From Pseudidiomarina tainanensis (GTDB taxonomy: Bacteria; Pseudomonadota; Gammaproteobacteria; Enterobacterales; Alteromonadaceae), in assembly GCF_004214835.1 (NCBI RefSeq), contig NZ_PIQJ01000001.1, forward strand, positions 868,001 through 932,000: a stretch of DNA of 64,000 nt, read 5' to 3'. The notes under the pieces were generated by a model that saw only the letters and a list, made by a program, of their open reading frames with translations, searched no databases and was not told where the DNA came from. The position numbers and the translations under genes were made by a program. This document shows positions 44,800-47,490 of this stretch, piece after piece. Positions within the stretch are counted from its first letter, which is position 1. Each line of letters begins with the position of its first letter.

Positions 44800-44827
44800 A
44801 AAACCCCGCGACTTAGCGGGGTTTTTT
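44800..44827 (+). terminator. Intrinsic terminator after the TonB2-type operon
   Basis: AAAACCCCGC (44800-44809) pairs with GCGGGGTTTT (about 44816-44825), with a six-base loop and T run. It separates the TonB operon from the RiPP locus. Confidence 0.95.
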
Positions 44828-44913: not shown

Positions 44914-45342
44914 ATGAAAGCGATGAAAAAATCAGTTTCAGTAGCGGTAGGCGCATTGATGGTAAGCGCTGGTAGCGTTGCAGCTTCAGCAAACCCTTTT
45001 GGCTTTACCGAATTGCCTGGTGGCTATCAACAGCAACAGCAACAACAGCAGCAACAGCAAGAGATGCGTTGCGGTGCCAATAAAGACGCCAAAAAGGCCA
45101 AAGAAGGCAAATGCGGCGAGGGTAAATGTGGTGAAGGTAAATGCGGTGGCGATAAAGCCAAAGAGCATGCCAAGAAATATGAAGAAGGCAAATGCGGCGA
45201 AGGGAAGTGCGGCGAAGGCAAATGTGGCGGTGATAAAGCCATGCAAAAAATGGACGACAAAGCGAAAGAGCGCATGAACGAAAAAGCCAAAGAAGGTAAA
45301 TGCGGCGAAGGCAAATGTGGCGAAGGGAAGTGCGGCGCATAG
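44914..45342 (+). CDS. hvfA: EGKCG-repeat RiPP precursor (HvfA/bufferin-like)
   Basis: 142 residues. A signal peptide ends at ASA (about residue 26). Then come a short NPFGFTELPGGY segment, an 11-residue polyglutamine tract (about 39-49) and a Lys/Glu/Gly/Cys-rich tail. The tail has nine EGKCG motifs in three triplets (64-78, 91-105, 127-141) separated by charged spacers, plus one extra Cys at 53: ten cysteines in all. In Haemophilus HvfA and related MNIO substrates, the Cys of EGKCG motifs is converted by an iron enzyme into copper-binding oxazolone/thioamide groups. Codons vary between repeats, so the motif is kept at protein level. GAGGA lies 8 bases before the ATG. Modification here is inferred. 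Confidence 0.88.
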   Translation: MKAMKKSVSVAVGALMVSAGSVAASANPFGFTELPGGYQQQQQQQQQQQEMRCGANKDAKKAKEGKCGEGKCGEGKCGGDKAKEHAKKYEEGKCGEGKCGEGKCGGDKAMQKMDDKAKERMNEKAKEGKCGEGKCGEGKCGA

Positions 45343-46142
45343 TTGGCTTAGGACTCCGGCGGGAATTCTTAACTGAAGTATTACAGCAGAATCCCGCCGT
45401 AGACTTTTGGGAAATAGCACCTGAGAACTGGATTGAGCGTGGTTACGAAGCCTCTTACCAGCTCGATAGGTTGCGTGAACGATATCCGCTGTATAGCCAC
45501 GGACTTTCGCTATCAATTGGTAGTCCAGACCCCCTTGACGAAGCCTTCATTCTAAAGGTTAAGGCATTTCTCGATCGCTTTAATATAGAGCGCTACAGCG
45601 AACACTTAAGTTATTGCTCAGCCAACGGTCATCTTTATGACTTGTTGCCGATACCGTTTAGCGAAGAAGCGGCGGACTACGTGGCGCAGCGCGTTCGTCG
45701 AGTCCAAGAATTGCTTGAACGTAAACTCATTTTAGAAAACGTTTCGTATTACTCTCCTGCGGCGCAAGAAATCAGTGAACTCGCATTTATTAAACGCGTT
45801 CTCACGCAAGCGGATTGTGACTTATTGCTTGATGTGAATAACGTGTTCGTGAATAGCGTGAATCACAAATATGACCCCGTGGCGTTTATTCAAGGTTTAC
45901 CATCAGAGCGCATTAATTACGGGCATATTGCTGGACACTACGAAGAAGAACCTGACCTGTTAATTGACACCCATGGCGCTGCTGTGCGCCAAGAGGTCAT
46001 GGAGTTATTAGCGCTTAGCTATGAAACTCATGGACCATTTCCGGTTCTGTTAGAGCGTGATTTCAATATTCCGCCGTTACCGGAGTTATTGGCAGAAGTA
46101 GAGGCCATAAAGGCTGTAACACAAAATACAGAAGTAGCATGA
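45315..46142 (+). CDS. hvfB: MNIO (DUF692) iron-dependent RiPP-modifying enzyme
   Basis: About 275 residues. The family N-terminus IVGLGLRREFL requires a start inside the precursor gene. Candidates are ATG 45300, ATG 45315 (given here) and GTG 45330, all before the precursor stop at 45342. The TIM-barrel metal motifs are present: YSHGLSLSIGS, SEHLSYC, LENVSYY, DVNNVFVNSVNH, GHIAGH, DTHG and LLERDFNIP. MNIO enzymes carry two or three irons and oxidise cysteines in precursor peptides (MbnB, TglH and HvfB types). It overlaps the partner gene in ATGA, so all three genes look translationally coupled. Confidence 0.9.
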   Translation: MWRREVRRIVGLGLRREFLTEVLQQNPAVDFWEIAPENWIERGYEASYQLDRLRERYPLYSHGLSLSIGSPDPLDEAFILKVKAFLDRFNIERYSEHLSYCSANGHLYDLLPIPFSEEAADYVAQRVRRVQELLERKLILENVSYYSPAAQEISELAFIKRVLTQADCDLLLDVNNVFVNSVNHKYDPVAFIQGLPSERINYGHIAGHYEEEPDLLIDTHGAAVRQEVMELLALSYETHGPFPVLLERDFNIPPLPELLAEVEAIKAVTQNTEVA

Positions 46143-46900
46143 CAGAGTTCCAACGTATTCAAGAGCAGTGGTCGCGTTGGTTAAGAGATCCGAAAGGTAG
46201 CGAACAACCTGTTGCCGAATTACGTCGACTGCAGGTGTATGAGCGCTTAGTCAGAAATAACCTCGACGGATTTGTGACCCGCGGTTTCCCGGTATTGTTT
46301 AGTATTCTGACTGCCGAACAATCGCGTACCTTGTTACAAGCCTTTATTTCTCAACACCAAGCAAAGACACCGCTATTTTCAGCAATAGGCGCAGAGTTTG
46401 TTGAATTTTTGGCTGACTATGACGAAGATTGGTTGCCTGCTTGGAGCTATCAGCTTGCCGTATACGAGCGCATGGAGGTAGAAGCGTATAACCATGAATC
46501 TGCCTGTATTTTGCCACCATTAAAAACGGCTATAGAAGCCACATTGTGGCAGGTCAATCCGTCGCTGCAATGGCATGCTTTCGACTACCCCGTTCATACC
46601 ATTCAGCCTGAACTTGTTCCAGAACAACCGCTGGAGCAGGCCTGCTATTTAGCCGTTTATCGTGTTGATGAATTTAACAATGAGATGATTTCGGCTAACG
46701 TCAAATTTCTGCAACTTAATGCGGTTACCATGTTACTGGTGGACTTTTTATTGCAGCACCCAAAGCTAACCGTAGCGCAAATTGCCGAACATCTTGCCAA
46801 ACAACTACCGCAATTTCCCGCCGAGCAACTGCATCAAGGCTTGTTGGCAACGGTGCCGGAACTCTATCAACGAGGTATGTTGTTCCCCAGTCGCAATTAA
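46139..46900 (+). CDS. hvfC: DUF2063 partner protein of the MNIO enzyme
   Basis: 253 residues. The N-terminal DUF2063 domain (about 5-95) contains LRRLQVYERLVRNNLDGFVTRGFPVLFSIL. The C-terminal part is all-alpha/beta, with RVDEFNNEMISANVKFLQLN. Although DUF2063 is annotated as putative DNA-binding, in MNIO systems this protein (HvfC/BufC type) binds the precursor leader and forms a complex with the MNIO enzyme; that role is applied here by context. The start overlaps hvfB in ATGA. Confidence 0.9.
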   Translation: MTEFQRIQEQWSRWLRDPKGSEQPVAELRRLQVYERLVRNNLDGFVTRGFPVLFSILTAEQSRTLLQAFISQHQAKTPLFSAIGAEFVEFLADYDEDWLPAWSYQLAVYERMEVEAYNHESACILPPLKTAIEATLWQVNPSLQWHAFDYPVHTIQPELVPEQPLEQACYLAVYRVDEFNNEMISANVKFLQLNAVTMLLVDFLLQHPKLTVAQIAEHLAKQLPQFPAEQLHQGLLATVPELYQRGMLFPSRN

Positions 46901-46944: not shown

Positions 46945-47070
46945 ATGGCACATGATGAAAACTTCCGTGATGAATCGGGCGTAAAAATGGGCTGGCTTGC
47001 AGTAATTGTATTTCTTGCTGTACCAGTGTTACCAGCAGTTCTAGCTTGGTATAAGTTTTTTTCAGCTTAA
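46945..47070 (+). CDS. 41-residue single-pass membrane protein
   Basis: This short gene starts at the ATG at 46945, with a GAGG box 9 bases upstream, and ends in TAA at 47070. The product has a charged N-terminus (AHDENFRDESGVKMG) and one membrane helix (about residues 17-38, WLAVIVFLAVPVLPAVLAW). It lies 44 bases after hvfC and 24 bases before a CheY-like gene. I do not recognise a family. Its link to the RiPP locus is by position only. Confidence 0.65.
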   Translation: MAHDENFRDESGVKMGWLAVIVFLAVPVLPAVLAWYKFFSA

Positions 47071-47094: not shown

Positions 47095-47490
47095 ATGTCA
47101 CTCCAATTATTGCTGGTTGAGGATAAACCAGCGACACGGGACCAATTGCTACAGATTATTGAGCAAAGCCCGTTTACGGTAAGTTGTGCCAATGACGGCC
47201 TCGACGGCTTAAACCGTAGTAAAAGTCAGCATTATGATGTGGTGTTGGTTGATCACAAAATGCCATTAATGGATGGTTTGGCTTTAATTAAGAGCCTACG
47301 CCAGTCTGAGCATTATCAACAGACACCAATTATTTTGATGACCACGCAAGATGCCGCACATGTGCAGCCTTTGGCTGACAAAGCCGGTGCAAACTTGTGT
47401 CTGCCTAAACCCGTAGAAGCACAACGCTTGTTGGGGTTACTCAACGACTTAGCGGCAACTACCGGTAACCCGCAACAAACAACTGTCTGA
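47095..47490 (+). CDS. Single-domain CheY-like response regulator
   Basis: 131 residues. A lone receiver domain: acidic pocket VEDKP (about 8-12), phospho-acceptor Asp in VLVDHKMPLMDG (about residue 53), Thr in ILMTTQD and Lys in LPKPVEAQ. The last 15 residues are Thr/Gln-rich. It has no output domain and no adjacent histidine kinase, so the partner is unknown. It starts 24 bases after the small membrane gene and ends 8 bases before apt. Confidence 0.88.
   Translation: MSLQLLLVEDKPATRDQLLQIIEQSPFTVSCANDGLDGLNRSKSQHYDVVLVDHKMPLMDGLALIKSLRQSEHYQQTPIILMTTQDAAHVQPLADKAGANLCLPKPVEAQRLLGLLNDLAATTGNPQQTTV

Follow-up and report, generated by a model that had tools for sequence, protein, structure and literature searches.

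In characterized HvfABC systems, the partner protein HvfC presents the precursor, the MNIO enzyme HvfB makes 5-thiooxazole by taking four hydrogens per Lys-Cys unit, and the product binds Cu(I) (PMC12668002, PMC13419390, PMC12538549); modification precedes Sec export, according to the Discussion of PMC12452194. Oxazolin, encoded by hvfABC of Haemophilus influenzae, derives from an EGKCG precursor, an HvfB-type MNIO and an HvfC partner and carries six 5-thiooxazole groups, an assignment that alkylation-assisted NMR put in place of oxazolone/thioamide (PMC13419390, PMC12668002). Fontiphorin of Fontimonas thermophila comes from a minimal ABC set, fonABC, with EGKCG repeats, seven modification sites and Arg-Arg and Phe specificity residues in the enzyme (PMC12668002). 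Bulbicupramide (mmrABC) occurs genus-wide in the marine gammaproteobacterium Microbulbifer and is built of EGKCG cassettes, with two Cys per cassette in the studied strain and five to eight Cys in the genus (PMC12538549). Antoine et al. 2025 described about 2,000 proteins of the Buf_EGKCG/oxazolin family ('captophorins'), with 17-residue repeats of two motifs and a predicted β-helix, and reported a precursor without an MNIO in 67 of 2,583 genomes (PMC12452194). The criteria for an EGKCG captophorin include 5-thiooxazole on Cys (−4 Da per site, about 305 nm) and copper binding. The bufferins Buf1 and Buf2 likewise combine an MNIO and a DUF2063 partner with a Sec-exported Cys-rich precursor.

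Here we analyse a locus of this kind in a 64,000-nucleotide stretch of the Pseudidiomarina tainanensis genome (the window, G000:C1:868001-932000; genome 2.37 Mb, 99.93% complete). The locus belongs to the captophorin family. It shares with fonABC the minimal gene set, the repeats and the specificity residues, in a different lineage, and with mmrABC the genus-wide occurrence in a marine gammaproteobacterium and the cassette organization, with three-Cys rather than two-Cys cassettes. Compared with oxazolin it has ten Cys sites rather than six, and it is set apart by motif triplets and a Gln-rich spacer; the triplets, and a precursor for which no confident fold is predicted, also differ from the repeats described by Antoine et al. 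Through this three-gene set, a small secreted protein very probably has its cysteines turned into rings that grip copper. We consider it highly likely that the best explanation is an HvfABC-type ('captophorin') RiPP locus with the full proposed pathway, from modification through periplasmic Cu(I) binding. The type is already in print (oxazolin, fontiphorin, bulbicupramide), and the locus is an unexceptional example of it; among the matches listed in a literature search there was no published study of an MNIO in Pseudidiomarina.

Layout and identity of the hvfABC locus

hvfA, hvfB and hvfC are co-directional and each overlaps the next within window positions 44914-46900 (Table 1). The overlap between hvfA and hvfB is 13 nt if hvfB starts at GTG 45330, and the ATG of hvfC at 46139 overlaps the hvfB stop codon (ATGA). 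An earlier note, made from the letters of the window, had described a secreted precursor with nine EGKCG motifs, an MNIO and a DUF2063 partner in overlapping genes; the coordinates and NCBIfam matches bear this out, with secretion read from a signal peptide by eye. The genes, their families, the active-site residues, the partner fold and the co-inheritance of the locus are established by computation. Among the best 15 named MNIO relatives listed, 14 were from Pseudidiomarina or 'Idiomarina' and one from an unplaced gammaproteobacterial MAG, and the locus clusters with Pseudidiomarina in an apt+dnaX tree.

Table 1 Features of the hvfABC locus (positions in the window)
Feature	Position	Strand	Description
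Terminator-like hairpin	44800..44825	+	10-pair stem, 6 GC, T tail; between TPR gene and hvfA
hvfA	44914..45342	+	Secreted EGKCG-repeat precursor, 142 aa, ten Cys; NF050137 57.3 bits (cut-off 19.5)
Predicted Sec signal peptide	44914..44991	+	Residues 1-26, ...ASA/N; read by eye
Leader motif NPFGFTELPGGY	44992..45027	+	Residues 27-38; proposed HvfBC recognition element
11-Gln run (CAA/CAG tract)	45028..45060	+	Gln-rich spacer, a subclade feature
Tenth site EMRCG (Cys53)	45061..45075	+	Kept in 7/7 genomes of the Gln-rich subclade
EGKCG triplet 1	45103..45147	+	
EGKCG triplet 2	45184..45228	+	
EGKCG triplet 3	45292..45336	+	Last KCG codons hold the proposed hvfB start in another frame
hvfB	45330..46142	+	MNIO (DUF692/PF05114), 270 aa from GTG; NF003818 406.6 bits (cut-off 360)
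hvfC	46139..46900	+	DUF2063 partner, RRE-like fold (PME-type 1), 253 aa; NF050145 202.8 bits (cut-off 142)

The earlier note had placed the locus in an HvfABC/bufferin class. The HvfABC half of that placement is upheld by the curated models, the catalytic residues and the partner fold, whereas the bufferin half is not: HvfB scores 274.8 bits against the BufB model, under its cut-off of 310, and the precursor has no DUF2282 match. The proteins thus assign the locus, on sequence grounds, to the HvfA/EGKCG branch rather than to the bufferins proper, with no Buf2 profile in the comparison.

Precursor, enzyme and partner

In HvfA the EGKCG motif occurs nine times in exact form, grouped into triplets at residues 64-78, 91-105 and 127-141 with Lys/Glu/Ala-rich linkers between them; the protein has cysteines at positions 53, 67, 72, 77, 94, 99, 104, 130, 135 and 140. 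Its N terminus, judged by eye, shows clear n-, h- and c-regions and an ASA/NPF cleavage pattern at residue 26, and N27, P28, F29, G37, Y38, Q39 and Q40 are invariant in 14 of 14 aligned precursors. The nine motif peptides are encoded by six distinct 15-nt codings, and hvfA has a dN/dS of about 0.03 against its two nearest relatives. Together with the NCBIfam matches of all three proteins and the presence of an MNIO in 23 of 26 genus genomes, these features argue that the array is not a product of chance. No dN/dS is given for hvfB and hvfC because their synonymous sites are saturated. In a whole-genome search, all three NF050137 matches fell within hvfA; reverse-strand ORFs over the array are taken as complement artefacts of the repeat.

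Nine motifs are unremarkable in a family whose KCG count ranges from 4 to 26 across 58 distinct precursors that have three or more KCG. Their arrangement in triplets is a minority one in the same set, where motifs stand in runs of two (267), one (38), three (29) or four (3). Within Pseudidiomarina, a run of at least three motifs is found in each of the 16 precursors compared; L102 and L116, which have no complete adjacent precursor, are not among these.

The earlier note had counted up to nine modified sites. The nine EGKCG motifs are exact, but HvfA has ten cysteines, and the count had passed over Cys53, which sits in an EMRCG motif after the Gln-rich spacer. Spacer and EMRCG occur together in seven of seven genomes of one subclade (the window and L095-L100), and most precursors of the other subclade have EAKCG as their first motif, near the place of EMRCG. 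Because FonBC accepts Arg at motif position 3 (PMC12668002), Cys53 is a plausible tenth modification site. The 11-Gln run directly after the leader is longer and less interrupted than in the six nearest relatives, and its CAA/CAG tract is a possible slippage-prone spacer.

HvfA scores 36.3 bits against the full-length equivalog NF050188, below the cut-off of 95 and a further difference from oxazolin. It matches no Pfam family at E 1, which argues against a DUF2282 protein. An AF2 model from 14 sequences gave no usable fold (mean pLDDT 42.3), so the β-helix reported for other members is not reproduced here.

The hvfB frame is open from 45300, and GTG 45330 is the start that fits relatives best: in three of four genus relatives hvfA contains an ATG or GTG at the equivalent position, and in the fourth, L037, the gene starts after the hvfA stop. 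The proposed start is read from the last KCG codons of hvfA, an arrangement in which the repeats would place a constraint on the beginning of hvfB.

HvfB is the one MNIO found in a whole-genome search (PF05114, E 3.9e-102). Residues E136, D168, N171, H199, D213, H215, E242 and D244 align to functional residues of VcMbnB in 7dz9, reported as E135, D165, N168, H194, D209, H211, E238 and the base D240, together with H55 and H91 (PMC8888699). The last two lie outside the alignment and were paired with HvfB H57 and H92 by motif (HGLSLS, SEHLS); the same two His motifs are found in 3bww (HGLSLS, SDHLS), over most of whose length HvfB aligns. All ten functional positions are invariant in 152 of 152 MNIO rows, each row being a locus and some genomes being counted twice. 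The metal motifs that the earlier note had read in the enzyme, and the iron ligands among them, are thereby found in place. By motif position rather than by alignment to FonB, the FonB specificity residues R15, R16 and F250 (PMC12668002) correspond to HvfB R10, R11 and F245.

The DUF2063 assignment of HvfC likewise stood, with the NCBIfam model joined by a Pfam match to PF09836 (69.1 bits). An AF2 model from 36 sequences (mean pLDDT 91.7) matched 3DEE, the partner protein of N. gonorrhoeae, in Foldseek (E 2e-9), the sole PDB match under 0.001; MbnC of 7dz9 and PqqD followed at ranks 2 and 4 with weak E values of 0.03-0.06.

By this model of the pathway, HvfC would bind the signal-peptide/leader region of HvfA and offer the EGKCG array to HvfB, which, with a mixed-valent diiron centre and O2, would take four hydrogens from each Lys-Cys unit and close a 5-thiooxazole ring. 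The earlier note had named oxazolone/thioamide for Haemophilus HvfA, the assignment since superseded by 5-thiooxazole (PMC12668002, PMC13419390). The modified 116-residue protein would then be exported by Sec and bind Cu(I) in the periplasm through thiols. For the ring, the iterative use of ten sites, the export after modification and the copper ligand, we infer from characterized homologues.

Inheritance, neighbours and physiological role

The precursor is present in 21 of the 26 genus genomes, each time together with the MNIO. Three genomes have neither, and the two with an MNIO alone are low-completeness assemblies (77% and 86%). Across 57 family loci (within L035-L094) whose MNIO shows 45% identity or more, apt or dnaX lies downstream in 52 and TonB-system genes upstream in 23. 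The corresponding counts for all 152 loci above this identity are 91 and 46, in a set that includes duplicates and distant taxa and in which short flanks hide some neighbours. Its position, mostly beside apt-dnaX in the family, indicates a long-resident locus and speaks against a mobile cluster.

TonB-ExbBD-TPR genes stand directly upstream of hvfA in the window, as they might if the product were a methanobactin-like chalkophore for copper acquisition. Between them and hvfA, however, lies the terminator-like hairpin, and a GC-rich stem with a T run is found by eye at its place in 12 of 12 aligned genus loci; the hairpin at 44800-44825 parts hvfABC from the upstream genes, in a window where the terminator scan as a whole was at chance level (3 found, 3.2 expected). 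Of 20 loci that lack an MNIO, 8 likewise have these TonB genes ahead of the gene for the EGKCG protein, so that the neighbourhood looks like chromosomal synteny. HvfB scores 42.4 bits against the MbnB model TIGR04159, far under its cut-off of 325, and no dedicated importer or protease was recognized beside the locus. Copper acquisition is accordingly the least probable of the alternatives that we weighed, and a highly improbable one. The TonB system as a part of hvfABC was dropped on the grounds of the hairpin and of its presence at the site without hvfBC.

Apart from the hairpin, the upstream alignment of 12 loci shows a GAGG-like stretch before the ATG in most. A promoter scan returned two sites where 3.7 were expected, none of them near the hvfA start, and no copper regulator or copper pump was recognized among the ORFs at 40.5-51 kb, most of which were named by eye. 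The Haemophilus locus also carries an hvfD/DoxX gene. The earlier note had reported a DoxX-like gene missing from the locus, and this extends to the whole genome, with 0 matches to PF07681, another difference from oxazolin; DoxX is variable in, and inessential to, the HvfABC family. The main text of the bulbicupramide report likewise does not contain 'DoxX' (PMC12538549).

Downstream of hvfC, and ahead of a solitary receiver-domain gene (47095-47490), positions 46945-47070 encode a protein of 41 aa that probably spans the membrane once. It has no NCBIfam or Pfam match at E 1, and similar short proteins recur at the site in other genera, including 8 of 20 MNIO-less loci; it was rejected as a fourth gene on both counts.

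In homologous ABC systems 5-thiooxazole is formed and copper is bound (PMC12668002), and copper binding and protection by HvfA of the window would follow by analogy. The earlier note had called such products both copper-binding and copper-protective. For characterized homologues the first holds, whereas published support for the second is mixed: the Microbulbifer homologue gave only slight protection in E. coli and was undetected in the proteome whether or not copper was added (PMC12538549). Physiologically, the protein most likely serves to buffer or detoxify copper, or some other soft metal, in the envelope, and this is the least certain step of the proposed pathway.

In P. planktonica (G159; L175 1009-2363), the sole EGKCG gene found is unlinked from hvfBC, 1.77 Mb from hvfB on the same contig, and keeps the leader GY. 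The next gene, 5 bp downstream and on the same strand, codes for a CDF cation-efflux protein (TIGR01297, 192.4 bits; cut-off 82.35). The CDF family usually moves Zn, Co, Ni or Mn rather than copper, and this neighbour hints at a metal other than copper. Such a linkage is one ground for a reading in which HvfA is modified but its physiological partner is not copper, or not only copper, and would be zinc, cadmium or general thiol/redox stress; the undetected Microbulbifer homologue and the discussion of roles with other metals by Antoine et al. (PMC12452194) are two more. Yet the linkage is found in one genome only, NCBIfam does not settle the metal of the CDF protein (ZitB-like, 150.5 bits, under 408), and the characterized homologues oxazolin, fontiphorin, gonophorin and bulbicupramide are copper binders. 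We regard this reading as rather unlikely and retain the copper-centred pathway as the preferred explanation.

Enzyme-less relatives

An MNIO, whatever its type, is encoded in 108 of 147 family genomes, and an EGKCG protein in 110. Comparison of the two listings leaves 22 of the 110 without an MNIO, and a direct search found no HvfC in these 22 either; 18 of them reach 90% completeness or more, and seven consist of a single contig. The motif alone is thus no proof of modification. These enzyme-less relatives were unexpected and are the part for specialists to follow.

We examined 20 of the 22 with wide flanks (L206-L225: G091, G078, G071, G103, G027, G038, G041, G076, G034, G107, G008, G052, G003, G109, G139, G039, G012, G087, G115, G092), G057 and G120 being left out for a contig end and masked letters. 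In 14, the protein occupies the hvfA site, co-directional beside TonB/TPR genes and/or the response regulator, apt or dnaX; in six it does not. A quick apt+dnaX tree of 72 rows combines the 12 loci in which both of these genes are present with 60 MNIO-bearing loci, and it groups the 12 on a single branch (SH-aLRT 99). As the tree is midpoint-rooted, a single loss is the simplest reading and no proof.

All 20 proteins keep the signal peptide, NPF and the arrays. Every one of their 242 Cys lies in KCG, and their dN/dS is 0.02-0.20 (six chosen pairs; dS 0.75-1.95, some near saturation). Two other features differ. The leader GY is present in 0 of 20, compared with 63 of 65 MNIO-linked family loci (the two exceptions are one AY and one masked) and 42 of 43 MNIO-linked loci elsewhere. 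Position-1 Glu is kept in 118 of 242 enzyme-less motifs, against 740 of 751 MNIO-linked ones, and is replaced mostly by Lys. FonBC fails to process Arg at motif position 1, Lys not being among the variants covered in the cited part of that work (PMC12668002).

Seven further EGKCG proteins from the family listing served as controls. Four, from one genus with MNIOs, have no GY, and in most of their motif pairs the first member has Lys or Asp. Of the ten MNIOs in their genomes, nine were examined; these are 26-39% identical to that of the window, with no HvfC match or EGKCG array adjacent, and are on these grounds not of HvfB type. The genomes of the other three encode a close MNIO (unlinked in one case, linked in another, the third being at a contig end), and each protein keeps GY and a Glu before every KCG. 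These results indicate that GY and Glu track an HvfB-type enzyme, and neither MNIOs in general nor linkage.

Does HvfA of the window itself work mainly unmodified, as a secreted metallothionein-like thiol protein to which hvfBC would be accessory? The enzyme-less genomes, with their arrays under purifying selection and their Cys all kept in KCG, speak for such a reading. The window protein, however, retains both GY and Glu, and so still looks like a substrate, and its hvfB and hvfC are open and intact. We judge this improbable for the window and keep to HvfA as a modified precursor.

For the enzyme-less proteins themselves, retention of the KCG Cys under selection suggests that the family may also work without this modification. 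Antoine et al. presumed that the rare enzyme-less precursors need no modification or have lost function; the passages of that work consulted here (PMC12452194) do not mention an orthologous position, a common branch, selection or a joint lack of GY and Glu. We see an evenly balanced case for the proposal that EGKCG proteins work without MNIO modification, and that one lineage lost hvfB and hvfC at the hvfA site, kept a selected Cys array and jointly gave up GY and, in about half of the motifs, position-1 Glu. If this is true, HvfBC would recognize its substrates in vivo by GY and position-1 Glu, and the family would cover both modified and unmodified secreted metal binders.

The window locus thus offers a genus-wide, vertically inherited case in a widespread, copper-related RiPP class of disputed physiological role. 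Its enzyme-less relatives, mostly at the orthologous site, on one branch where they could be placed, under selection and lacking the proposed recognition features, make a function free of modification testable.
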